Below are positions 4,860-49,285 of a stretch of 57,390 nt of DNA, piece by piece. A program made the translations under genes and the position numbers. Each line of letters starts with the position of its first letter. The first letter of the stretch is position 1. Location of the stretch: NCBI GenBank assembly GCA_011389745.1, contig JAABTQ010000019.1, positions 1-57,390 on the forward strand, read 5' to 3'. The notes beneath the pieces are model-generated. The model saw only the letters and a list, made by a program, of their open reading frames with translations. It ran no database searches and was not told the origin of the DNA. The DNA is from Desulfobacteraceae bacterium. Its GTDB lineage: Bacteria > Desulfobacterota > Desulfobacteria > Desulfobacterales > SKZT01.

Positions 4860-7569
4860 TCAAAATCTCCTGTTTGTTTATCTTCGAATTCGGTTCCAGG
4901 TATTGGATATATTGTTCCGCAAAATGAATTTCATCATCTCGATCCCTGATAGTCCCATCCAGTTTTGCATCTCTAATTGCCTCAAATATTTCCCGGAATA
5001 TAGGGCCGGGTTTCAGGCCCATCTGTATCAGATCATCGCCTTTAATAGAAGTGTGAATATAGCGTAATTTTGTAAAAAAATGAGATATGGCTTTTTTGAC
5101 CTTTTCCTGCTCGGATGCAGCCATTATGTAAAGAATTAATTCGGTTCTGAATTCCCAAAGGCGTCTGTACAAGATTCTGTTGGCGATCGGAAGGTTACGT
5201 TCGAGCCAGTAAATACATTTATCCGCTTCGAAACGGTCATTGCAAAAAATTTTCCTGTAACGGGGCGGCAGTTCAAGTCGCTTGCAAACCTCGTCGGAAA
5301 TCTGTTTATCCGTGTGCCGGGTCAGAATCAGAAGATAAACGATCCATCTCATATTAGATTCTTCGAGAAAAAGCAAATCAAACCAGTCAATAACCTTTTT
5401 AGCTGAGTCAAGCAGGCTGATCAGGTTCTTATCAAGTATGAGGGAAGGATGAATGACTTTGAGAAGATTGTAATCATTCATGCGAATAATGGCCGGAGCA
5501 GGAGTTTCTTCCTCTAAAATCGACTTGATTTCATTAAAAACCCTACGTCCGCTCAAGCGTTTGAAAAATTCCATCTTGACCGCATTTTTAATCAGGCCCT
5601 GGGTGAGTTTTCCGATTGTAAAATCAAAGCGTTGTTCAAAACGAATAGCTCTGAACACTCTTGTGGGGTCTTCCACAAAACTTAAGTTGTGCAATACGCG
5701 AATTGTTTTTTCCTTGATGTCTTTAAGTCCGATAAAGAAATCTATAAGAGTACCAAAATTTCCAGGATTTAAATCAATGGCCAGGGTATTGATTGTAAAA
5801 TCCCTCCGGAACAAGTCGAGTTTGAGAGAACTCATTTCCACAGTGGGAAGATCTGCCGGAAAGCGGTAATATTCCATTCTTGCTGCAGCAATATCCACTT
5901 TGAAGCCATCCTCGAAAATAACAACGGCTGTTCCGAATTTCCGATAGGTATGTACCCTCGCTTTAACCTTTTCAGCATATTTTTTTGCAAACGAAATGGC
6001 TTCGCCTTCGATAACAACATCTATATCTTCATTTGATCGGTAAAGGAAAAGATCCCGGACAAATCCTCCGATAGCATAAGCATTGACCTGCATTTGGCCG
6101 GCTGTTTCACCGATACTTTTTAAAATATGCAATATCCGTGGTGAGTGACGTTCCCGGAGGAACTTTTTGACATTGCGGGTTCGGGCGCGAATATCATTTT
6201 TAATGGGATCGGGCATATTGTTGGCAGTCAATTGTGATTTTCTTACCAGATGATTGAGTAGATCGGTTCGGGTAATAACACCGCAAATAACTCCTTTATC
6301 CACAACAGGAAGTACTCTTTGCTTGTTTTCGATAATTTTTTCCTGAATTTCGAAGATATCGGATTCGGGAATAACGTATTTCACATCAGTGGTCATATAC
6401 TCTTTGATTTGAACATGATCCAGTTTGTGATAAAGGGCCTTTTCGATCACCTGTCGTGTGATATACCCTTCCAGTTGTTCTTTTCCTCTCACGTTGCGGG
6501 TCACAACCAGAGCGTTGATGTTTTTACGGGTGAGAAGATCATTGGCATTTCGGCAGGTAATATCAGCTGCTGCAATGATGGCCGGAGAGGTCATTAGGTC
6601 GGCAGCCAAATGGCGGGATCTAACTTTTTTATAAAGGATATCCACGAGTTCATGCTGAGCCTGAACAAGGGTTTTGCCACGAATGGTACCGGCGGCAGCA
6701 AATGAGTGTCCTCCCCCGCCTATGGTTTTCAGGATAGCACCAACATCGACTTCGGGAACACGGCTTCGAGCCACAAGGTATATTTTATTTCCCATACCGG
6801 CCAGTGCGAAAATAGCATTGAGATTTTCCATTCGAACCATCTTGTGGACAAGAAAGGCAAAGTCCGGCACATAGTTGTCTGTATTAACGGTGGTAACCAC
6901 AACATCGATACCGTGGATATTAAAATGAATGGCGCCCTGGATCATATCGTTTAAAAGTCCCACTTGTTCAGGGCTGATTTCTCTTGCGATCAGGTCGGAA
7001 ACCGTATTTAAATTGGCTCCTTTAGACAGGAGCAAGGCCGCGGCATTAAAATCCTGTCCGGTGGTTGACGGAAATGTAAAAGAGCCTGTGTCTTCATAGA
7101 TTCCCAGGATCATAATGGTAGCTTCATCCGGCCCGATATCAATTCCCTTTTCCTCAAGAATTTCCGTTAAAAGTGTCACTGTTGCCCCGGTCGAAGAAAG
7201 CACCTCAAAGTGCCCTTTGATGTCGTTGGGCATGGAAGGATGGTGGTCGTAGATGTGGATTTCCACATCCTGTCTGTTTGCCAGGGATGCCAGCTTTCCA
7301 ATTCTGCCGGGCTGACGGGTATCTACGAGAACGAGGCGTCGAATTTTGGAAAAATCAATTGTGTTCATATCGGCCATGTTGAAAAGATAAACCATTGAAT
7401 TGATAAAAAAATTTCTCAAAGTTTGTTCCTGAGATCCCGGAAAAACCACCACTGAATCCGGGTATAGCTTCTGTGCTGCCAATAAAGAGGCCATGGCATC
7501 GAAATCGGCATTGATATGAGTGGTAATGACAGTTACATCTTTTTTTTGATAAATATCGGAAGTTGTCAA
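4852..7569 (-). CDS. DHH phosphoesterase - CBS pair - tRNA nucleotidyltransferase fusion (putative A-adding enzyme)
   Basis: 905 aa with three modules. Residues about 10-310 are a DHH/DHHA1 phosphoesterase (NADFDAMAS at 20-28, DTRQ, DHHPS at 108-112, glycine-rich GGGGHSFAAAG). Residues about 320-440 are two CBS domains. The rest is a class II poly(A) polymerase/CCA-type nucleotidyltransferase with head motif YAIGGFVRD and the catalytic DID pair in NEDIDVVIEG, followed by the RNA-binding neck and body. Proteins of this layout in Aquifex and some deltaproteobacteria work as the A-adding half of a split CCA enzyme; poly(A) polymerase activity is the alternative. That role here is inferred. The start is TTG at 7569, since no ATG precedes the DHH motif. 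It heads the trpS-scpA-scpB operon. Confidence 0.88.
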   Translation of the reverse strand: MTTSDIYQKKDVTVITTHINADFDAMASLLAAQKLYPDSVVVFPGSQEQTLRNFFINSMVYLFNMADMNTIDFSKIRRLVLVDTRQPGRIGKLASLANRQDVEIHIYDHHPSMPNDIKGHFEVLSSTGATVTLLTEILEEKGIDIGPDEATIMILGIYEDTGSFTFPSTTGQDFNAAALLLSKGANLNTVSDLIAREISPEQVGLLNDMIQGAIHFNIHGIDVVVTTVNTDNYVPDFAFLVHKMVRMENLNAIFALAGMGNKIYLVARSRVPEVDVGAILKTIGGGGHSFAAAGTIRGKTLVQAQHELVDILYKKVRSRHLAADLMTSPAIIAAADITCRNANDLLTRKNINALVVTRNVRGKEQLEGYITRQVIEKALYHKLDHVQIKEYMTTDVKYVIPESDIFEIQEKIIENKQRVLPVVDKGVICGVITRTDLLNHLVRKSQLTANNMPDPIKNDIRARTRNVKKFLRERHSPRILHILKSIGETAGQMQVNAYAIGGFVRDLFLYRSNEDIDVVIEGEAISFAKKYAEKVKARVHTYRKFGTAVVIFEDGFKVDIAAARMEYYRFPADLPTVEMSSLKLDLFRRDFTINTLAIDLNPGNFGTLIDFFIGLKDIKEKTIRVLHNLSFVEDPTRVFRAIRFEQRFDFTIGKLTQGLIKNAVKMEFFKRLSGRRVFNEIKSILEEETPAPAIIRMNDYNLLKVIHPSLILDKNLISLLDSAKKVIDWFDLLFLEESNMRWIVYLLILTRHTDKQISDEVCKRLELPPRYRKIFCNDRFEADKCIYWLERNLPIANRILYRRLWEFRTELILYIMAASEQEKVKKAISHFFTKLRYIHTSIKGDDLIQMGLKPGPIFREIFEAIRDAKLDGTIRDRDDEIHFAEQYIQYLEPNSKINKQEILNG

Positions 7570-39087: not shown

Positions 39088-40017
39088 TTATGAAACAAGC
39101 CATAAGGAACAGTTTTCGATTTTATCAATGACGTATTCGGAAACCTTTCCCATGAAAAAGGACCTGCTGATTCCACGCCGGCCAATAACAACGGTTCCAT
39201 AATCTCCTTTTTTAAACTCATTGATAATCGCTTTGCCGACATTCATACGGGGTTTCACCTCCTTAATCAGGATACGATCTTGGCCAATTCCCGCATCTTT
39301 GAATTTTTTAAGTGCATGAGTGTAAAAACTCTGCACGCAGCGTTTATCACCTTCGATGACTATCTTTTCGAATTCACCATTGGTGTCATTAAAGTCTATT
39401 TCACAATAATCTCCAATTTTAGCTGCTACATGAAATATGGTGATATTGATCTCATGATTATTCATGAGCATAAAACAAAGGTGATCTACTGCGCGAAGAG
39501 AGCTTTCCGAACCATCGATAGCCGCCATCACTTTTTTCGATTCCACCTCACCATCTACTACCCAAACCGGGATAAACTGTGAATGCTGAAGCAATTTTTT
39601 CGTGACACTTCCGGAAAAAGTTTCTTGCAATCGGGTCAAACCACGCCTGCCGATGCAGATCGCATCATAGAGCCCTTTTTGGGCATGCTCCAGAACATCT
39701 CTGGCCATTCCAAGCATTTTGGGTTGGGCGATGATGTCGATTTGGTCCTCTTTAATTCCCAATTTGACCATCTGTTCCTTGTAGTTGTTCAGGAACTGGT
39801 GCGCCTTTTCATGATTTCTCTGCATGATTTTTTTTAGCTCGGTTTTAGCCTTAAAATCGGTTTTGGCTTCATCCAGCAGATACTGGGATATGGTCGGGAG
39901 AACATGAAAGAGAGTGTAATGGGGCTGGTTGGTAATGGATGCTATTTTAGCCGCATAGACAATAGCATATTTGGAGTAAATGGAATCATCAACGGCAATC
40001 AATATTTTCTTTTTCAC
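39088..40017 (-). CDS. Tandem universal stress protein
   Basis: 309 aa made of two UspA domains (about 1-150 and 158-309). The first begins KKKILIAVDDSIYSKYAI and holds GRRGLTRLQETFSGSVTKKLL; the second begins KKVMAAIDGSESSLRAV and ends GRRGISRSFFMGKVSEYV. The glycine-rich GxxG-9x-GS/T pattern of ATP-binding Usp proteins is close to complete in both. The start is GTG at 40017 with AGGAG 6 bases upstream. It lies 97 bases downstream of a receiver-kinase gene on the same strand and may be co-transcribed with the signalling genes. Confidence 0.92.
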   Translation of the reverse strand: MKKKILIAVDDSIYSKYAIVYAAKIASITNQPHYTLFHVLPTISQYLLDEAKTDFKAKTELKKIMQRNHEKAHQFLNNYKEQMVKLGIKEDQIDIIAQPKMLGMARDVLEHAQKGLYDAICIGRRGLTRLQETFSGSVTKKLLQHSQFIPVWVVDGEVESKKVMAAIDGSESSLRAVDHLCFMLMNNHEINITIFHVAAKIGDYCEIDFNDTNGEFEKIVIEGDKRCVQSFYTHALKKFKDAGIGQDRILIKEVKPRMNVGKAIINEFKKGDYGTVVIGRRGISRSFFMGKVSEYVIDKIENCSLWLVS

Positions 40018-40114
40018 GGAAAAACTCCTTTTATTATTTTATCTTAAGCAGATAAAGGTTTCATACAGGCAGGTTTGAATCAATATATTTATCATGGAAT
40101 AATGACTGCGTTAA

Positions 40115-41323
40115 TTAAATTTTAAACTTGGTATCATTATGTTGGTTTTTAACATTTTCCCAGGTGCCCTTTTGTTTTGTTTCTCTCAGTTCAGTGTTCA
40201 TTTGTCTGGGAAGCCTGACAAAAAAGGTGGTACCCTGTCCCAGACGGCTTTCCACATCCATTGTGCCTCCGAGCTTTCTCATAATATTATTTGAAACAAA
40301 AAGCCCTAATCCGGTTCCCTGCCCGGGGCTTTTTGTACTGAAGAAAGGATCGAATATTTTTTTCAGGTTTTCCTTGGCGATGCCTTCGCCGGTATCTGTT
40401 ATAGTGATAACGACCGATTTATCGCCTTCAGGCTTTAATCCTACCGTGATGTTGCCGTGGGCTCCGGTGGCATGGATGGCATTGGCAACAAGATTTAAAA
40501 GGACCTGCCGAAGCTGATAGGGATCGGTTTGGATGATAAAAGGCAAATCGCCGGTATCCTGCACCATTTGAATATCTTTATATAATGCCTCGCGCTGAAG
40601 CAGTTCAAAGACTTCACACAATAGCTCATTTACATCAACATCCGAAGAGACTGATTCGTTTTTCTTAACAAAACCAAGAAGTTTATGCGTAATACGCCTT
40701 GCCCTGTCAATACCGGTTTCAACCTTGCTGATCCCCAATTCAAATTGCTTTTTATAGGCAAAACCTTCTGCTTCTTTTTTTTTTAAAAGCTGTCCCATGT
40801 AACCGGCGGCCTCCTTGATGATGGCCAACGGGTTATTGATTTCATGAGCGACTCCTGTTGCCAGAGTCCCAATGGATGCCAGTCTTTCGGTGACAATCAT
40901 TTGTTGTTCGAGTTTGGCGCGATATTCTGCTTCTTTTTTTTTCTCGTGTTTATATAAGATCTTGTCGAATGCCTGTTGAATCTTTCCCAAAAGGTGCTCA
41001 AGTTCGACAGGTTTGGTCAGATAATCAAAAGCGCCTGCCTTAATGCCCTCAACGCCATCCTGGGTGGAAGCATGACCTGTCAGAAGAATAACCTCAGTAT
41101 CCGGATAGTTTTCCTTTATTTGTTTCATAAGAGAAATTCCGTCCATTCCGGGCATTTTGACATCACTTACCACCACATCGATGGGTTGACTCTCCAAAAT
41201 TGTAAGGCATTCCTCACCATTGACGGCCTGTTCAGCGGTTATCCCTCTTTTTTTCATTCTTTTTGCAATGGTATTTAAAAAGCTTTTTTCATCATCAACA
41301 AGCAGAAGGCGAATATTTTGCAT
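40115..41323 (-). CDS. Receiver-histidine kinase (REC-HisKA-HATPase), copy A
   Basis: 402 aa with the receiver in front of the kinase. REC: DDE acid pocket at 10-12, phosphoacceptor Asp54 in VVSDVKMPGMDG, switch Lys104 in YLTKPVE. A coiled linker (115-145) leads to HisKA with His159 in [13 protein letters not shown], then N box NLVANAIHATG, G1 DTGEGIA and G2 GQGTGLGL. No membrane segment is seen, so it is a cytosolic kinase whose activity is likely set by phosphorylation of its own receiver. It is clearly paralogous to the kinase at 44733-45911. It is downstream of a lone receiver and a membrane kinase on the same strand. Confidence 0.93.
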   Translation of the reverse strand: MQNIRLLLVDDEKSFLNTIAKRMKKRGITAEQAVNGEECLTILESQPIDVVVSDVKMPGMDGISLMKQIKENYPDTEVILLTGHASTQDGVEGIKAGAFDYLTKPVELEHLLGKIQQAFDKILYKHEKKKEAEYRAKLEQQMIVTERLASIGTLATGVAHEINNPLAIIKEAAGYMGQLLKKKEAEGFAYKKQFELGISKVETGIDRARRITHKLLGFVKKNESVSSDVDVNELLCEVFELLQREALYKDIQMVQDTGDLPFIIQTDPYQLRQVLLNLVANAIHATGAHGNITVGLKPEGDKSVVITITDTGEGIAKENLKKIFDPFFSTKSPGQGTGLGLFVSNNIMRKLGGTMDVESRLGQGTTFFVRLPRQMNTELRETKQKGTWENVKNQHNDTKFKI

Positions 41324-41423
41324 GCGACATTACCCTATTACAAGGCATCTAATCATTAATATTAAAGAAGGGCTTTTAAGTATGAATAGTTTATAATATC
41401 AAAAATAGTCATCATGAAAAAGT

Positions 41424-41852
41424 CTATGGATTTTGAGTGTCGTCTTTTTTGAGCCGCTTACGTTCCAGATAAGCTTTGCGAACTTTATCAAGCAATTCTT
41501 TAAAATCGCAGGGTTTTGTTAAATAGTCAAAAGCCCCTAATGAAATTCCGTCGCTTGCCGCCTGAGCCGAGCCGTGACCGGTAAGCATAATAACCATCAG
41601 CTCGGGATCCATTTTTTTAAAAATTTTCAAAACTTCCAGCCCATCCATATCTTCCATCTTTAAATCAAGTACAGCCACATCAAAGTCGTTTCTCCGAAGG
41701 ATTTTAATTGCCTCCGAACCGCTGTAAGATTTGGAAACATCAACGCCTCTCAGAGCCATTCTATTGGCAAGAACGTTGACATAACCTTCTTCGTCATCAA
41801 CAAGCAATAATCGGATCGGTTCTTTGACCTGTGTTGTCTTTTTAGATTTCAT
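41424..41852 (-). CDS. Stand-alone response regulator receiver A
   Basis: 142 aa, one receiver domain and no output domain. Acid pocket VDDEE (18-22), phosphoacceptor Asp63 in VLDLKMEDMDG, Thr/Gly switch in MLTGHGSAQ and Lys113 in YLTKPCDF. A basic N-terminal tail (MKSKKTTQVK) precedes it. It lies 71 bases after the membrane kinase gene and 100 bases before the REC-kinase gene on the same strand, so it is probably a phosphotransfer middleman between them. Confidence 0.93.
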   Translation of the reverse strand: MKSKKTTQVKEPIRLLLVDDEEGYVNVLANRMALRGVDVSKSYSGSEAIKILRRNDFDVAVLDLKMEDMDGLEVLKIFKKMDPELMVIMLTGHGSAQAASDGISLGAFDYLTKPCDFKELLDKVRKAYLERKRLKKDDTQNP

Positions 41853-41923
41853 GGTTTCGAAAGATCCTTAGTAAAAAATCTTTGAAAAGCCTGAAGGATT
41901 TTTTATTTCCTGCCTGGTCTTTT

Positions 41924-43645
41924 TCATTTTTTTTCTTTTGGAGTGGAATTGTTACCTCTTTTTTTATCTAAAGGGATCCGGACAGTAAAGGTAGTGCCTT
42001 TGTTAATAACACTTTCAACATCGATCCGGCCACCCATCTTTTTGACAATGCCGTAACAGATCGAAAGTCCTAAACCTGTTCCCTTGCCCACGGGTTTTGT
42101 GGTAAAAAAAGGATCGAATATCCTTGATAAATTCACCTCAGGAATTCCCGGACCGGTGTCTGCAAGGGTGATAAGGATATCATCATTTTGCAGGCGAGTA
42201 CTGATATTAAGTTTACCCCCGGTCTTTTCCATGGCGTCCATGGCGTTGTTCATAAGATTCAAAAGCACCTGCTGAAACTCCGTGCTGGATATCGTTATCA
42301 TTGGCACATCAGGATTAAGGTCGGTATTGACGGTTACATTGGAATATTTTGCCCTTTGAGTGGAGAGGTTTATGACTTCTTCTATGAGTTCGTTGATCTG
42401 CAACTCCTGCAGGCTGGAGTCGGTTTTGCGGGCAAAACTCAACAGCTTGTGCGTGATCTCCTTACAGCGTCGTCCCTGGGAATTGATTTGAGTCAATGCC
42501 CTGGTGAATTCCTCCAGATTTTCACTTTCCTGAAACTCTTCTTCTTCAAGCAAATCCTGAACCCACCCGGCTTCTTCCACCATGATTGCCACAGGGTTAT
42601 TGATTTCATGAGCAATACCTGCCGCCAACTCCCCTATGGAGGCCAGTTTACCGGTTTCTATGACCTGCTGGTTCATCATCTCTTTTTCTCTGTCCGCCTT
42701 GGCGATTCGGTTTACAGTGATGGTGGAAAGTAAGAACGCCATGGTGATGATAACCAGACCTCCGCTCATGGTAATCAGAATGGCGATATTCTGTGCTGTT
42801 TGAAAGTCCGAAAGCGCATCCTTAAAGTTTTGCTGAAAAACCATGACCCATTCACCGTCTTTTAAAAAGCCGGTAACAAGAATGATTTCTTCCTTTACTG
42901 ATGTTCCGAAAGTTTCCCGGATAACAACCTCATCAGGATTTTTATCATTTCTGATAAGGTTGAGGGATAACTGTTTGGCGGTGATCGCATCGGATTTGGG
43001 TTTTGTCTGGAAATTGCCCTCCCGGTTGACAATAAATGCAAAACCGGTTTTGCCGATTTGGAGGTTTTCCACCAGATCGTTAAATGCCGTAAAGTTAATA
43101 GTGGATCTTAACAGCCAGGTTTTTTCACCATCATTTTTTTTTACTGATACAATAAAATGCGGAAGTCTTCTAAGCCCCAGAAAAACATCGCTGATATAAT
43201 TATCCTGGTTGATGGCTTCATTAAACCACTCAGCATCGGCATATTCAGCTTTGACCAATTTATACGGTCCGGCATAGGCAACCTGGACTCCATGTTCGTC
43301 GATTATACCGAGATCTTCAAATACTATTCCGTATGTGTTTTGAAGAATGGCGAGACGGTTTTCAAGAAAACTTTCATCCTTGAACTGTTCAAAGTCGCAA
43401 CTTTCCGTCAGGTGCTGAATGTTATTGAGCCTCTCTTTTAAAAAGTTATCGATAATGGTCTTATGTTTCAGAATCTGTAAGGAAAGATGGGCATAAACTT
43501 TTTCACGGTATGATTGCTTAAATTCTCCCAATATCATGGTGCTGACCAGAATCATGGGTGTCAGAGACACGATGATGACTATGAGTACCATTTTTTGAGT
43601 CAGTGACTGATAATAGGTTTCGCCATTTGTTCGCAAACCGATCAA
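41924..43645 (-). CDS. Membrane sensor histidine kinase with periplasmic Cache-type domain
   Basis: 573 aa. Helix 1 at 18-40, periplasmic part 41-285 that resembles a double Cache ligand-binding domain (for example GIIDEHGVQVAYAGPY), helix 2 at 286-310, then a coiled linker and a kinase: His346 in AAGIAHEINNPVAI, N box NLMNNAMDAME, G1 DTGPGIP, G2 GKGTGLGLSI. No clear HAMP domain is seen. The start is TTG at 43645, backed by GGAGA 6 bases upstream. It is the only membrane-bound kinase in the cluster, so it is the likely signal input; the ligand is unknown but Cache domains often bind small organic acids or amino acids. Confidence 0.92.
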   Translation of the reverse strand: MIGLRTNGETYYQSLTQKMVLIVIIVSLTPMILVSTMILGEFKQSYREKVYAHLSLQILKHKTIIDNFLKERLNNIQHLTESCDFEQFKDESFLENRLAILQNTYGIVFEDLGIIDEHGVQVAYAGPYKLVKAEYADAEWFNEAINQDNYISDVFLGLRRLPHFIVSVKKNDGEKTWLLRSTINFTAFNDLVENLQIGKTGFAFIVNREGNFQTKPKSDAITAKQLSLNLIRNDKNPDEVVIRETFGTSVKEEIILVTGFLKDGEWVMVFQQNFKDALSDFQTAQNIAILITMSGGLVIITMAFLLSTITVNRIAKADREKEMMNQQVIETGKLASIGELAAGIAHEINNPVAIMVEEAGWVQDLLEEEEFQESENLEEFTRALTQINSQGRRCKEITHKLLSFARKTDSSLQELQINELIEEVINLSTQRAKYSNVTVNTDLNPDVPMITISSTEFQQVLLNLMNNAMDAMEKTGGKLNISTRLQNDDILITLADTGPGIPEVNLSRIFDPFFTTKPVGKGTGLGLSICYGIVKKMGGRIDVESVINKGTTFTVRIPLDKKRGNNSTPKEKK

Positions 43646-43755
43646 ATTATTTCTCCGGAATGAATTATCAGTGGATTGAAAATATGCTCCGGAAGTAATT
43701 TCTTATTGTTGCTTCCAGAAGCTCCATAACTATTTGAAAATAAAGCATTCAGGCT

Positions 43756-43795
43756 AAAGCCGGAATGTTATTGAGTTAATAATCCGGCTTTTTTT
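43756..43795 (+). terminator. Strong rho-independent terminator in a divergent gap
   Basis: AAAGCCGGA (43756-43764) pairs with TCCGGCTTT (43783-43791), and TTATT/AATAA extend the stem inside; the plus strand ends in seven Ts. The minus strand has no T-run at the other side. No plus-strand gene lies upstream within the 110 bases back to the minus-strand kinase start, so it may end a small RNA or an antisense transcript. Confidence 0.7.
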
Positions 43796-44185
43796 GAAAT
43801 CATCAATGATTATTATATGTTTAATCGTACAGTTAACAAAAAATCTAATAACACGATGGACCCATATTGTAAATTGTTTTATTCCCATGACCTGCATCCC
43901 GGACATTAAAAAAATCATCAGGTTGGGCCGGTCGGATTTATTGAGGTTCAGACTTTACCATTGGCAGCAATTCAACATTATCCAATATCAAACTGCTGGT
44001 AATCCATATTAATATTTGATAAACAACGTAAAGTATATCCCTTTGTCTTCTGTATTTTTGACTAGATAATTATTGACATATTATCCTGTTTTTGGCATAT
44101 ACGGTGTCTGAAAAAGGCAATTCCTGTATAATTTCAGGGACACGAATTCAACTCTGTCAATAACAAGCAAAAAAACACCCATTTA
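43796..44185. other. Intergenic stretch ahead of the receiver gene at 44198
   Basis: No supported gene. TTGACA at 44073-44078 and a perfect TATAAT at 44127-44132 are both present but not at promoter spacing with each other. Either could belong to the promoter of the plus-strand receiver gene. A 72-codon frame at 43794-44012 has no ribosome binding site and is rejected. Confidence 0.4.
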
Positions 44186-44197
44186 AGGAGATTTTCC

Positions 44198-44635
44198 ATG
44201 TTTAAAACACCTAGCCGCATTTTATTGGTTGATGATGAAAAGGATTTCGTGGAAATGTTGACTTTGCGACTTCAGGAAATCGGTGAAGAAGTCCTGCAAG
44301 CATACAGCGGTCTTGAAAGTTTGGAAAAGTTAAAGGAGACAGAGATTGATGTAGTCATCCTGGATGTTAAAATGCCGGGGATGGATGGCATTGAGACCCT
44401 GCAGGAAATCAAAAAACGCTATCCTTTGGTCGAGGTAATAATGCTGACCGGCCATGGTACCATAGAAACCGCTGTTCAGGGAATGAAGCAGGGGGCTTAT
44501 GATTTTCTCATTAAGCCGGCGGATTTTGATGAGTTGACGACTAAACTGAACAAAGCCAGAGAGCGAAGGCATGATCAGATGGAAAGGATTCGAAAGGCCG
44601 AAGCCAATTCTCTGTTGCGTCGGTCCAATATTTAG
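44198..44635 (+). CDS. Stand-alone response regulator receiver B
   Basis: 145 aa, a receiver with a short basic C-terminal tail and no output domain. Phosphoacceptor Asp56 in VILDVKMPGMDG, MLTGHGTIE switch and Lys106 in FLIKPADF. AAGGAG precedes the ATG by about 8 bases. It lies 97 bases ahead of a REC-kinase gene on the same strand; a short GGGGC/GCCCC hairpin lies in that gap. Together with its neighbours it mirrors the receiver plus REC-kinase pair on the minus strand. Confidence 0.93.
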   Translation: MFKTPSRILLVDDEKDFVEMLTLRLQEIGEEVLQAYSGLESLEKLKETEIDVVILDVKMPGMDGIETLQEIKKRYPLVEVIMLTGHGTIETAVQGMKQGAYDFLIKPADFDELTTKLNKARERRHDQMERIRKAEANSLLRRSNI

Positions 44636-44732
44636 GTTTCATGAAGGAGCTGTACTGAAAGTTTTAAAAGCAGCTGGGGCAGGCCCCTGTCTTGAAATAA
44701 TCGTTTTCACGGAATTTTATTGAGAGATTTTG

Positions 44733-45911
44733 ATGAGTGATAGTCATAATATAAGTGATAGTAGTCATATTGGTGAGATGAATGTGTTGCTGGTCGATGA
44801 TGAAAAGCATTTCCGTGAAATTCTGGTAAAGCGGCTTTCCCAGCGGGGTATTATTGCCCTGCAGGCATCAGATGGCGAAGAGGCGTTGCGGTTATTGGAA
44901 GAAAAGCCCGTGGACGTCATCGTTATGGATGTGAAAATGCCCAGAATGAATGGCATTGAAACTCTTCGCCATGTCAAAGATCAATACCCGGCCACCGAAG
45001 TGATCATGCTGACCGGTCATGCAAGTACCCGGGACGGAGTTGATGGAATTAAGGCCGGTGCTTTTGATTACCTGACCAAACCTATCGAATTCGAGCAATT
45101 ATTGCGAAAAATTCGGCAGGCACAAAATAAAATCAGACGCGCCGAGACTGAAAAAAAGGAAATTGAATTCAGGGAGCGTATCAAGCAACAGATGGCTATC
45201 AATGAACGCCTTGTCGCATTGGGAACCATAGCGACGGGAGTAGCCCATGAAATCAACAATCCTCTGGCCATCATCCAGGATTCGGCCGGTTGGGTGAAAC
45301 AGATACTTGCCAAGCCTGAAATGAGCACAATCCCGCGAAGACCGGATTTTGAAAAAGCTTTGGACCGGATTCAGACCTCGGTTGACCGGGCACGAAGAAT
45401 TACCCAGCAGCTTCTTCATGTTGTTAAAACCCAGAGCGCGGAAATTCCCGATCTTGTGGAAATGACCGAAGTCAATCTCAGAAAACTGGCCGGGGAATGT
45501 ATTGCATTGGTCGAATTGGAGGCATCCTACAAGGAAATTAAAGTTTCCCTGGAAAGCTCCGACCCGAATCCGATAGTATGGACCGATCCTTACCAGTTTG
45601 CGCAGGTGTTGCTCAACCTGTTAACCAATTCCATCCAGGCTACCGATGCCGGTGGAAAGATCAATGTTGTTATCAAGTCATCCGAAGAGCAGGTTTCTTT
45701 AGCGGTTCAGGACAACGGGTACGGTATTCCCGAAGAAAATCTAACCAAAATTTTCGAACCTTTCTTCAGCACCAAAGCTGTTGGTGTGGGGACTGGTATG
45801 GGGCTTTACATATCCTCAGGTATTGTGACCAAATTGGGCGGGGTGATGGCTGTGGATAGTCAGCCTGACAAAGGTACCACTTTTACCATTGAATTGCCCG
45901 TAAAAGCGTAA
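44733..45911 (+). CDS. Receiver-histidine kinase (REC-HisKA-HATPase), copy B
   Basis: 392 aa from the ATG at 44733. Same architecture as the kinase at 40115-41323: REC with Asp66 in [13 protein letters not shown] and Lys116 in YLTKPIEF, coiled linker, His172 in [14 protein letters not shown] box [12 protein letters not shown]1 DNGYGIP, G2 [10 protein letters not shown]. No membrane helix. The segment [19 protein letters not shown] is almost identical in both kinases, which shows duplication. The input is probably phosphoryl transfer from another kinase of the cluster. Confidence 0.93.
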
Positions 45912-45928
45912 CTGATCGAAATTTCCCC

Positions 45929-46231
45929 TTATCCTGCAAAAAAATCCCATATTAAAGGATAAACATAAAATAAAATTATTAAAAAAAGAGCGCTTACCGG
46001 CCAAAACCACCACTGTCTGATAAATTTGGGATTCCAGGCATTTTTGCCCACGGGAAGATTGTGCAGCGGCTTTAAGAATTGATACAATGCGTCTAGTTGT
46101 AGGTTATCCTTGTCAATATCTTGCCCGGTTTTAATGCTTTGTCCGTCTGCTGTTTTTTCTGGGTCCTCATCCTGATTTCTGTCCTGGGCTGAAGTATTAT
46201 TCAGCGTTTTGGATATCTTATCTTGCTTCAT
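45929..46231 (-). CDS. Small hypothetical single-helix membrane protein
   Basis: 100 aa. Residues 1-65 are polar and rich in Asp, Gln and Lys; one C-terminal membrane helix covers about 77-97 (PVSALFLIILFYVYPLIWDF) after a Trp-rich rim (RQWWFWP). The N-terminus is therefore probably cytosolic with a tail anchor. The ribosome binding site is weak. No family is recognised. It converges tail to tail with the REC-kinase gene and stands downstream of the transporter gene on the same strand, separated from it by repeats. Confidence 0.55.
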   Translation of the reverse strand: MKQDKISKTLNNTSAQDRNQDEDPEKTADGQSIKTGQDIDKDNLQLDALYQFLKPLHNLPVGKNAWNPKFIRQWWFWPVSALFLIILFYVYPLIWDFFAG

Positions 46232-46302
46232 GTTTCATTATGACCCTATTTTCCTTCGTTCCCATGCATAGTATGGAAGCATACAGGGAGCCGTTCTTTG
46301 CC

Positions 46303-46539
46303 TGTCATTCTGAGGGAGCGACTCGCAGCGGATCAGCGATTGAATGACAAATATTTTCCGAAATGTTGATTAAAACCACGGCGACCGAAGAATCTCCGGC
46401 CCCAAGTCCGCACAGATTATCAGATATGACCGGGAAAGGCAAAAAAATAAGCTCTGCCGGCAAAAACGAAAGATTCTTCGTCGGCCAATTTTTCCGTGCT
46501 ACCTGATAAACTTTTGTTGTTGGCCCCCTCAGAATGACA
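46303..46539. repeat. Intergenic repeat with TGTCATTCTGAGGG ends
   Basis: TGTCATTCTGAGGG at 46303-46316 and its exact inverse at 46526-46539 bound 237 bp without a gene. Inside, 46373-46399 is an exact inverted copy of 35358-35384, next to the other patch holding the same CAGAATGACA motif. It looks like a dispersed, non-coding repeat family of this genome. Confidence 0.65.
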
Positions 46540-46588
46540 ATAACCGTGCCGGAGAAAAAGCAAAATCAACCGGATCGGGTATTTTTTA

Positions 46589-46657
46589 GTGCTTGAACAA
46601 AAAGTCCATAATTCCCTCCCCCAGGCGTTCCCACTGGGGGAGTTCTCGTTCAAACAC
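46589..46657. repeat. Palindromic dispersed repeat, copy 2 (69 bp)
   Basis: Ends GTGCTTGAAC and GTTCAAACAC are near inverse, and a perfect 9-bp inner stem CTCCCCCAG/CTGGGGGAG is present. The left 27 bases match 7651-7677 exactly. It lies 43 bases past the stop of the transporter gene and could serve as its transcript end by forming a hairpin. Confidence 0.75.
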
Positions 46658-46700
46658 TATCTCTCCAACCCGGTTGACATGCAACGTATCAGAAAGTTGA

Positions 46701-48110
46701 TTATTTCACAAAGCCTATCAGCGGCCAATAGACCATCATGCTCAGGGTACAAACCACCAGGAGAATGAGGCACCAGGGTACGGCAATCTTGATAAAGTCA
46801 ACCTGGCTGAAGTAACCTGCGCTGTAAGCAATGATGGTTGGAGGACAGCCGATGACCAGCATGATAAATGAGGTGGTCATGGGAGCCAGCATGGCCACGG
46901 ATTCGGGTGACATCTGCATCATTTCCGCCATGGGCAATGTGATGGGCAGCATCAGAGCGACAGCCGCAGAATTGCTCATAAGGCTGGATAAAAAAGCCCC
47001 GAAAAAGGAAAAACCGTAATAAACCACAAAGGTTGATTTACCGTCCAGAAGGGGAAGAATCACTTCAGCCAGATACCGTCCCGCACCACTATCCAGCATG
47101 GCAACACCCAGTGAAACGCCGGCGCCGAATACAATCCAGGATTCCCAGGGAAATTTGTCGCAAATGGTTCTGAAAGTGATATATCCGGGCGCGCAGAAAC
47201 CCAGAATGGCAAAAGCTGCCGGAACACTATAATGCCATCCGGTCAGGTCGCCTGAAAACCAGAGAATGAATGTGATAATAAAGACCACCAGCACACCTTT
47301 CTCCGCGTTGCTCATGGGGCCCGGGTCCTCCAGGTCGACACCCTTGAGTTCCTTTTCCTTGGGCCTGAAAAGGATCCACATGATGGCCCATGTGGCCACG
47401 GCGGTTAAAAACATGATGGGAAACATGATGACAATGTATTGCAGAAAACCTATTCTTATCTGCCCAGCACTGAATTTATTAAGGATTTCCAGGGCCAGGG
47501 GGTTACGTCCACCACCCAGCAGGGTTCCGAACCCACCCGCTGAAGCGGCTAAAGGGATAAGCATCATGAAAAACATGGGCAACCGGTGCCCCATGCCCGG
47601 CTTGAGTCCCATGCTCATAAATACCGGCACAAAGGCAAAGACCATGATGACGGTAATGGTTGCATCATGAAAAACGGAAGAAGCAATGGTGCATCCCACG
47701 GCAAGGATAAAACTCAGCCGTTTGACCCTGGTTCCGGCAAATTTCAGAAGGTAATACATGATCCGGCTGGCGAGGCCGACTTCGTTTAACACCACGCCGA
47801 ACATAATGATCATGAGCACGAACATGACCGCCGGGCTGGCAAATGGTGCCCAGGCGCTTTGGGAGCTTTGGATGTTCAAAAGGATCAAACTTGCGCCTGC
47901 CAGAAGAGCGGTTACGCCGATAGGAACCGCCTCGGTGACCCATAGAATGACTATGGTCGTCAAAAGCGCCAGCAGCCGGTGCCCTTCCGGAGTCAGATTT
48001 TCCGGTGTGGGCAGCAGCATTACCAGGATACCCAGTCCCAGAGCGATTGATGATTTGATAATAATAGATTTTGTGGTTGCCTCTTGTTTAATGGATTCTA
48101 CCTCGGCCAT
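46701..48110 (-). CDS. DASS/SLC13-family anion transporter
   Basis: 469 aa with about 11-12 membrane helices over residues 17-465. The family segments are present: SNSAAVALMLPI near residue 375, one of the two SNT-type substrate/sodium motifs, and GGGRNPLALEILNK in the first half. Members carry dicarboxylates, citrate or sulfate with sodium. Which anion it moves cannot be told. The start is ATG at 48110 with GAGGGG upstream. A lone receiver gene lies 90 bases upstream on the same strand, so the pair may be co-transcribed. Confidence 0.9.
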   Translation of the reverse strand: MAEVESIKQEATTKSIIIKSSIALGLGILVMLLPTPENLTPEGHRLLALLTTIVILWVTEAVPIGVTALLAGASLILLNIQSSQSAWAPFASPAVMFVLMIIMFGVVLNEVGLASRIMYYLLKFAGTRVKRLSFILAVGCTIASSVFHDATITVIMVFAFVPVFMSMGLKPGMGHRLPMFFMMLIPLAASAGGFGTLLGGGRNPLALEILNKFSAGQIRIGFLQYIVIMFPIMFLTAVATWAIMWILFRPKEKELKGVDLEDPGPMSNAEKGVLVVFIITFILWFSGDLTGWHYSVPAAFAILGFCAPGYITFRTICDKFPWESWIVFGAGVSLGVAMLDSGAGRYLAEVILPLLDGKSTFVVYYGFSFFGAFLSSLMSNSAAVALMLPITLPMAEMMQMSPESVAMLAPMTTSFIMLVIGCPPTIIAYSAGYFSQVDFIKIAVPWCLILLVVCTLSMMVYWPLIGFVK

Positions 48111-48200
48111 AAATCATACCCCTCATTTAAGATTAGTGGTCTGTAGTTGTTTATTTATTCCTGTATTCATAGACCTGTCCCGGTCGGCCCGAGTTTGGTG

Positions 48201-48632
48201 CTATATATGGGATTTTTTCATTGCCTCCGCCATTTGAATTTTTTCTTCCAGAATAACGCGCTTGTTGTACGCTTCCTCTGCCTTGGCGATAAGATCTTCG
48301 ATATTTGCCGGTTTGGTCAGATAATCCGTCGCACCTAGCTTCAAGCCTTCCACGGCGGATTCTGCGGTGGCATGTCCGGTCAGCATGATGACTTCCACCA
48401 TGGGAAATTTCTGCTTGATATGTTTAAGGGTTTCCACGCCGTCCATACCCGGCATTTTGACATCCAGAATTACGACATGGACCAGTTCTGCTTCAAGCTT
48501 TTTTAAGCCTTCCTCCCCACTGGTTGCAGTTATTGCATCGTAGCCTTTTTTGGCGATCATTTTCTGTGTGGTCTGTAAAAAACGTTCTTCATCATCCACA
48601 AGCATTATTTTCATTTTTACCATTTTGACCAT
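48201..48632 (-). CDS. Stand-alone response regulator receiver C
   Basis: 143 aa from the ATG at 48632, 7 bases after AAGGAG (a TTG one codon earlier is possible). Phosphoacceptor Asp57 in VVILDVKMPGMDG, MLTGHATAE switch, Lys107 in YLTKPANI. A C-terminal helix replaces an output domain. It is closely alike to receiver B at 44198-44635. It sits directly upstream of the anion transporter gene. Confidence 0.93.
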   Translation of the reverse strand: MVKMVKMKIMLVDDEERFLQTTQKMIAKKGYDAITATSGEEGLKKLEAELVHVVILDVKMPGMDGVETLKHIKQKFPMVEVIMLTGHATAESAVEGLKLGATDYLTKPANIEDLIAKAEEAYNKRVILEEKIQMAEAMKKSHI

Positions 48633-48736
48633 CAAGGTTCTCCTTTCATGAAGTTATCGCAGAAAAGTAAATATGAATCGGATGATCAAGACCAGTGACC
48701 TCCCCATCCGGCGTTGTTGCTCTCTTTAATTAGTCG

Positions 48737-49285
48737 TTAAATCTCACAGGATTTAATATTTTTTGAAACAAAGGCAAATACATCCGCCAGGCGTAAAATG
48801 CCGACAATATCCTGCTCCCGGGTAACCAACAGTGAAAGCGCTTTTTGGGTTATCAACTGATGAATGGCCTGGTCAAGGTTTGCATCCTCTTTGATGTATT
48901 CACCTTGGCTGGGGGTGTGCATGAAGTCTTTAGCTATTAATGTGGCGGCCTTTTTACAGATATTTTTCAGGGGTTTGTCCCAGAAACTTGTTTTGGCGAC
49001 TGACTTAAGATAATCAAGACTGTAACCAAAATGAGACAATTTATCAAAATTCACGATTTGGTAATTGGGTTCAAGCGCAATAAGCAAATCCAATTGGCTG
49101 ATTTTGCCGACAATTTTTTGTTTGTCATCGTAAACAAGGATAGCCCGATGATGATATTGGCTCTGATCAAATTCTTCCTGGGCCTTTTCCAGAGCAAGCA
49201 CCGCTTCATAAAGCGTGGAATTTTCAGATACCGTTGCATAATCCTCAAGTGCGACCATCACATCTTTTACTTGAACTGTTTTCAT
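48737..49285 (-). CDS. CBS-domain pair protein
   Basis: 182 aa, essentially a Bateman module alone: CBS 1 about residues 3-70 (VKDVMVALEDYATVSENST) and CBS 2 about 118-180 (KDFMHTPSQGEYIKEDANL), joined by a longer linker that is likely helical. Such proteins sense adenine nucleotides or SAM and control partners. GGAGG precedes the ATG. It has a strong promoter of its own and stands next to the receiver gene, suggesting a part in the same control district. Confidence 0.88.
   Translation of the reverse strand: MKTVQVKDVMVALEDYATVSENSTLYEAVLALEKAQEEFDQSQYHHRAILVYDDKQKIVGKISQLDLLIALEPNYQIVNFDKLSHFGYSLDYLKSVAKTSFWDKPLKNICKKAATLIAKDFMHTPSQGEYIKEDANLDQAIHQLITQKALSLLVTREQDIVGILRLADVFAFVSKNIKSCEI

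Follow-up and report, generated by a model that had tools for sequence, protein, structure and literature searches.

A cluster that combines sulfate transporters of the DASS family with two-component and CBS-domain genes has been described in the Desulfobacteraceae (Desulfosarcina variabilis) as a sulfate-uptake cluster of 26 sulfate reducers (Sci Adv 2025, PMC11887813). The shared constituents are DASS sulfate transporters and Cache kinases, together with several two-component genes and proteins with CBS domains; sulfate sensing is proposed, and the regulators are WalR-type and promoter-acting, with the CBS proteins as a second level of control. Here, we analyze a locus of closely similar composition (a DASS transporter, a Cache kinase, further two-component genes and a CBS-pair gene in one cluster) from a Desulfobacteraceae bacterium (SKZT01; GCA_011389745.1), positions 39088-49285 of a 57,390-nucleotide (nt) stretch of contig JAABTQ010000019.1, hereafter the window. 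A first-pass annotation of this DNA had known of no described system with this composition; the published cluster, there with DNA-binding regulators, corrects that statement. Unlike the WalR-type (winged-helix) regulators, the receivers of the window lack an output domain, as do 95 related lone receivers, and the accessible text of the 2025 paper does not mention lone receivers, the fusion proteins and small membrane protein discussed below, or the corresponding operon of Kapabacteria and Ignavibacteria. The window system is a variant of the published cluster in which the output appears to be the transporter and not a promoter.

The best overall explanation, which we hold with moderate confidence on the basis of comparative sequence analysis, is that the locus would encode a two-component module gating sulfate uptake after translation in a dissimilatory sulfate reducer. 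Under this scenario, the DASS protein would import sulfate with Na+, and the Cache-domain histidine kinase (Cache-HK) would sense an extracytoplasmic ligand, plausibly sulfate, and phosphorylate the lone receivers (REC domains). One of these receivers, rec3, would contact the transporter, and also the CBS-pair protein, directly and thereby change transporter activity, whereas the two soluble kinases with N-terminal receivers (REC-HK) together with rec1 and rec2 could add side branches of the relay that feed this module as well. The CBS-pair protein and the tandem universal stress protein (Usp) are probable inputs that would add a cytoplasmic energy or adenylate signal, and transcription would be handled elsewhere, by an NtrC/sigma-54 regulator encoded on another contig beside two DASS paralogs. 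The analysis establishes the composition of the locus, its conserved gene order, the orthologous positions of the receivers, the lack of output domains, the receiver fusions in relatives and the link to genomes with dsrA; sulfate as substrate and signal, the routes of phosphotransfer, and the gating with its sign are what we infer.

The transporter, one of the targets that the first-pass annotation had considered, and the CBS protein emerge as likely targets of the receivers from two kinds of gene fusion in relatives. Nine loci of the Kapabacteria/Ignavibacteria/Chlorobi group (one of them partly masked), with one in the complete chromosome CP058732.1 of Ca. Kapaibacterium (L038), encode REC-DASS proteins of ~590 amino acids (aa), in which the domains follow the same order as the rec3 and DASS genes of the window; in the window these are separate adjacent genes, and the single polypeptide occurs only in relatives. 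The typical operon of Kapabacteria and Ignavibacteria consists of CBS-CBS, REC-DASS, REC and Cache-HK genes separated by gaps of a few bases. A second REC-DASS form, of 683-709 aa in complete copies, is present in some Desulfobacterota. Pfam calls both domains in REC-DASS proteins from three loci (L050, L038 and L109; L-numbers denote the DASS loci compared, and C-numbers the contigs of the 3.6-Mb genome, in which the window contig is C11). The AlphaFold model of the L050 protein, built from a 61-row alignment, has a predicted local distance difference test (pLDDT) score of 90.5 and a predicted TM-score (pTM) of 0.84 and places helix 5 of the receiver (residues 107-129) six residues before the first transmembrane helix (136-155); in Foldseek searches, the two parts of this model match DASS and receiver structures, respectively. 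The DASS tree requires at least two changes of the fused state. The fused receivers form one clade, but their DASS partners are found at two positions of the DASS tree, which makes two independent fusions likely although not proven. Among 296 evenly drawn genomes of the phylum of Kapaibacterium, one encodes REC-DASS, a count that is uninformative on frequency given that the phylum as drawn is very large. Literature searches found no description of a receiver-transporter fusion.

The second kind of fusion, REC-CBS-CBS, is encoded directly upstream of DASS in 16 non-redundant loci, with gaps of no more than 50 nt in 13 of these; its structural model is less sure on domain placement (pTM 0.73). 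The genus of the window contains the receiver and the CBS pair both as split genes (L009: a pseudo-receiver of 140 aa and a CBS protein of 186 aa) and in fused form (L012: 306 aa), which supports the view that neighboring receiver and CBS genes act as one functional unit. At several loci, a Yip1-domain membrane protein (L014:2988-3545 and similar) is encoded between a 617-aa DASS protein and REC-CBS-CBS.

The association of these genes is conserved well beyond the window. The first-pass annotation had held that a neighborhood without counterparts in any relative would count against a joint system; the whole set is kept within the genus, and the core is shared across the order. The same-genus genome SKZT01000047.1 (L012/L090) has the complete set in synteny, in the order REC-CBS-CBS, REC, DASS, CBS-CBS, DASS, small membrane protein, REC-HK, REC, REC-HK, Cache-HK, REC, one further open reading frame and Usp-Usp, with the tandem Usp keeping its place. 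Beyond the genus, we compared the neighborhoods of 138 non-redundant DASS genes, and a block of Cache-HK, REC, REC, DASS, REC-HK and REC, built around a DASS subfamily of ~526 aa, recurs in many families of the order. Among 48 loci, a receiver lies directly upstream of DASS in 35, a Cache-HK no more than three genes upstream in 36 and a REC-HK directly downstream in 33. A lone receiver is found within five genes of DASS in 37 of the 38 well-flanked loci of the 526-aa subfamily, against a background of 3 lone receivers per 285 genes, and a Cache-HK is nearby in 31 of the 38; a CBS-pair gene is near DASS in 26 of the 43 well-flanked loci of the window's own DASS subfamily. Spacing is tight: 8 of 52 upstream receiver genes overlap the DASS gene and 16 of 52 lie within 20 nt of it, as do 15 of 33 REC-HK genes. 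In our reading, the window carries this old block in rearranged form, to which a second REC-HK has been added and into which a CBS-REC-DASS unit has been inserted.

The rest of the genome shows the same association. The closest named relatives of the window DASS belong to Desulfobacterales metagenome-assembled genomes and isolates, and within its own genome two close paralogs (83% and 86% identity) lie on C3, each with a very similar lone receiver in front of it. A fourth DASS gene, on C12, follows a REC-CBS-CBS fusion gene, and at each of the more distant DASS genes on C2 and C68 both a lone receiver and a Cache-HK lie no more than three genes away. Seven of the 11 lone receivers found in this genome lie within ~6.5 kb of a DASS gene, that is, within ~2.6% of the genome (binomial p ~2e-9, with receivers of one locus not fully independent); this enrichment, together with the order-wide synteny, rules out chance clustering. 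On C2, a hexapeptide-repeat (left-handed beta-helix) protein is encoded between DASS and Cache-HK (L011:5081-6502).

The receivers themselves are kept as phosphorylatable switches, as indicated by their position-specific clades and intact active sites. In a tree of 100 receiver domains, which are short and yield branches that are often weakly supported, receivers group by position in the block (11 label changes versus 70 in shuffles). Both REC-HKs of the window fall inside the REC-HK clade (100%), rec2 groups with the receivers that follow REC-HK in the conserved block (a set of 11, 99%), rec3 belongs with those that precede close DASS genes (11 rows, support 1.0), and rec1 has its nearest relatives outside the genus among receivers that immediately precede DASS in the conserved block. 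By a strict count of five residues, 57 of 61 receivers upstream of DASS retain an intact active site, as do 39 of 39 after Cache-HK and 50 of 50 within REC-HK. Pfam finds Response_reg in all 95 lone receivers and no output domain, with only weak, chance-like matches to unrelated families. Counting all receiver proteins near DASS, 196 non-redundant ones have no more than 200 aa and 23 are longer; the latter include 18 of the NtrC type, one of the OmpR type and one with GGDEF. True pseudo-receivers do exist in L009, in L012 and before some Cache kinases, where 13 of the 25 receivers directly preceding Cache-HK are degenerate; those at L009:6174-6557, L009:8865-9287 and L012:2305-3225 have the acidic pair DR, lack the Thr and Lys, and lie beside or are fused to a CBS-pair protein at DASS loci. 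As the cause of the missing outputs, degenerate receivers are ruled out for the window, where every active site is intact.

A sulfate module is, in our judgment, a well-supported and probable description of the locus. The window DASS scores 145 bits against PF00939 (cut-off 27) and 193.6 bits against TIGR00785, just under the cut-off of 198.6, and its profile matches the solved structures of VcINDY (best) and human NaS1. Profile and fold, the latter matched on the fused relative, place the protein in the DASS/SLC13 family; of the two SNT motifs of this family, the second reads SNS and the first aligns to HDATIT, which is conserved in the DASS subfamily. In the window's genome, dsrA is present (613 bits), so that the organism is probably a dissimilatory sulfate reducer, and dsrA exceeds the curated cut-off in all 12 tested genomes with a close DASS (Kapabacteria/Ignavibacteria-type, Nitrospirae-type and Rhodocyclaceae records). 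Desulfobacterium autotrophicum HRM2 has three genes of the same DASS family clustered with lone receivers, Cache-HKs and two REC-CBS-CBS genes. By gene order and spacing, these fit HRM2_38230, HRM2_38270 and HRM2_38300; the first and the last show high expression below 100 uM sulfate (Tarpgaard 2017, as cited in PMC5840216). Four Nitrospirae-type loci (L037, L044, L048 and L057) carry a CBS pair and DASS followed by MnhE (called by Pfam in L044) and two small MnhF/MnhG-like genes; these Na+/H+ antiporter subunit genes are consistent with Na+ coupling and an apparent Na+ circuit around sulfate uptake. In dsrA-bearing Rhodocyclaceae (L043, L045 and L046), a tandem Usp gene lies directly upstream of DASS, and the transporter may export sulfate there if the hosts are sulfur oxidizers. 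Such possible export, and the HDATIT sequence in place of SNT at the first Na+/substrate motif, would suit a module that works as described on sulfite, thiosulfate or a dicarboxylate; given dsrA in 12 of 12 genomes and the expression of the HRM2 relatives at low sulfate, we consider a different ion unlikely.

The other alternatives concern the output. The kinases and lone receivers could form a branched phosphorelay or a phosphate sink that ends at the NtrC/sigma-54 regulator of the DASS operons and leaves the transporter untouched. Several observations fit this: DASS operons are enriched in upstream sigma-54 sites (30 of 123, versus 7 of 111 for control operons taken from the same loci; Fisher p = 1e-4), an orthologous NtrC-type regulator and its kinase recur near DASS loci, the 18 NtrC-type proteins noted above are mostly ~60% identical to each other and form one clade, and the block order resembles that of RedCDEF (T1-R1R2-T2-R3), where a receiver passes phosphate to the second kinase (PMC3018481). 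In the window's genome, such a regulator and its kinase are encoded on C3 (L009:2002-5045) beside the two DASS paralogs, with a one-mismatch sigma-54 site at L009:5068-5083, 40 nt before the gene of a CBS protein at 5124, so that the unlinked regulator allowed for by the first-pass annotation likely exists. A purely transcriptional role nevertheless leaves the REC-DASS and REC-CBS fusions and the overlap of receiver and DASS genes unexplained, and the window has neither a DNA-binding regulator nor a convincing sigma-54 site (22 matches with at most two mismatches in the window versus 28 expected), none of the matches upstream of the DASS unit being convincing; we regard it as rather improbable and infer that DASS expression runs through the separate NtrC/sigma-54 regulator, the lone receivers serving another purpose. 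Control of the DASS promoter by the Cache kinase and a winged-helix WalR/OmpR-type regulator is the published model for D. variabilis and 26 species (PMC11887813); Trans_reg_C is found in 0 of 95 lone receivers and in 1 of the 23 longer ones, and this output seems highly improbable here, with the D. variabilis cluster known to us by the paper's description. Lone receivers in general have many targets, and those of the window might act on unlinked partners (metabolic enzymes, motility or a global regulator), with DASS merely sharing the operon. Their position-specific orthology, their spacing and the fusions all link them to DASS and CBS, making unlinked partners very unlikely. Direct action of the receivers on the DASS and CBS proteins is the option toward which we lean, if only somewhat, and several points weigh against it: the fusions occur in relatives and not in the window's own genome, with a DASS identity of ~50% for the Kapabacteria form and of ~30% when the two fused types are compared with each other; the change of the first Na+-site SNT to HDATIT makes substrate and ion use uncertain; no lone receiver lies near some close DASS genes (Desulfatitalea L022; CBS or Usp instead in Nitrospirae and Rhodocyclaceae); and clusters of this kind have been read as transcriptional.

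Taken further, gating by receivers would define a class of response regulators with a secondary transporter as the output, in which phosphorylation of a receiver that is part of the DASS polypeptide or docks on the transporter would directly switch sulfate uptake on or off, further regulation coming from the CBS and Usp proteins and from a one-helix subunit; we rate this generalization as evenly balanced. If it is true, the first step of dissimilatory sulfate reduction is under fast post-translational control common to Desulfobacterota and Kapabacteria/Ignavibacteria, response regulators gain an output type, transport, of which searches of papers found no description, and the promoter-based model published for such clusters needs revision. 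The REC-DASS proteins of the relatives suggest that sulfate uptake is switched directly and not only via genes.

The features of the locus are listed in Table 1. All nine genes named by the first-pass annotation are present, with their domains called by Pfam, and direct reading of the sequences bears out its description of intact His, Asp and Lys sites: HEINNP and intact N, G1 and G2 boxes in all three kinases, and the D-D, D, T and K active-site residues in the receivers, which consist of a REC domain alone with an intact acidic pocket. Likewise, Pfam detects no DNA-binding, chemotaxis or non-kinase enzymatic domain in the proteins of the locus, as had been claimed. Strand and spacing suggest three transcription units: CBS pair, rec3 and DASS, followed after a 469-nt gap by the small membrane protein (minus strand); rec2 and REC-HK 2 (plus strand); and Cache-HK, rec1, REC-HK 1 and tandem Usp (minus strand). 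An interspersed non-coding repeat (46240-46660) lies between the DASS and small membrane protein genes, with partial copies on C8, C3, C68 and C41.

Table 1. Genes of the two-component/DASS locus, in positions of the window
Feature	Length (aa)	Coordinates	Strand	Domains and remarks
CBS-pair protein	182	48737..49285	-	Pfam CBS x2; first gene of DASS unit
rec3, lone receiver	144	48201..48635	-	Pfam REC only; directly upstream of DASS, 90-nt gap
DASS/SLC13 transporter	469	46701..48110	-	PF00939 (Na_sulph_symp), TIGR00785; probable Na+-coupled sulfate uptake
Small single-helix membrane protein	100	45929..46231	-	One transmembrane helix; possible DASS accessory subunit
REC-HK soluble kinase 2	393	44730..45911	+	Pfam REC, HisKA, HATPase_c
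rec2, lone receiver	145	44198..44635	+	Pfam REC only
Cache-sensor membrane histidine kinase	573	41924..43645	-	Pfam dCache_1, HisKA, HATPase_c
rec1, lone receiver	142	41424..41852	-	Pfam REC only; after Cache kinase
REC-HK soluble kinase 1	402	40115..41323	-	Pfam REC, HisKA (weak), HATPase_c
Tandem universal stress protein	309	39088..40017	-	Pfam Usp x2

The small membrane protein is a tenth gene that the first-pass annotation had overlooked. It has no Pfam or NCBIfam match and is under purifying selection (pN < pS in 15 of 15 pairs). Its relatives share the motif KPLHNLPRGKNTWNP..I..WWFWP followed by a single helix; the conserved motif of the 100-aa protein is PLHNLPRGKN..W.P...WWFWP, of the invariant type PLHxLPxGK...W.P...WFWP. 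The protein is encoded in 9 of 389 genomes of the order, all of which belong to the set of roughly 21 that hold a close DASS (hypergeometric p ~6e-13), and its gene is usually downstream of DASS, being the next gene in Desulfobotulus- and Desulfatitalea-type loci (18-48 nt) and farther away elsewhere. The simplest guess from these sequence patterns is that it may be an accessory subunit of DASS.

Several other known systems share individual traits with the locus. RedCDEF of Myxococcus xanthus is not known to have a DNA-binding output. It shares with the window system two kinases, three receiver domains and communication between kinases via a receiver (PMC3018481), and the window, like the order-wide block, encodes at least two transmitters and three receivers together; RedCDEF differs in its developmental role and in the absence of a transporter, CBS or Usp protein, and the second kinase of the window system carries a receiver at its N-terminus. 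The SLC5 transporter-histidine kinase fusions CbrA/CrbS (PMC8871633), similarly to REC-DASS, join a transporter to a two-component domain within a single polypeptide, but in these the transporter is the input side and the kinase the output. REC-DASS takes its input through the receiver, and its apparent output is the transporter. TeaD is an ATP-binding Usp encoded beside a Na+-coupled transporter (the TRAP system TeaABC) whose activity it modulates (PMC9006882). This pair differs from the window system in the transporter family and in having no receivers or kinases. In MgtE-type transporters, the CBS domains reside within the transporter polypeptide. MgtE and other CBS-gated transporters (cited in PMC11887813) share with the DASS loci the CBS pair as a cytoplasmic regulator of transport; in contrast to MgtE, the CBS pair at the DASS loci is separate or fused to a receiver.

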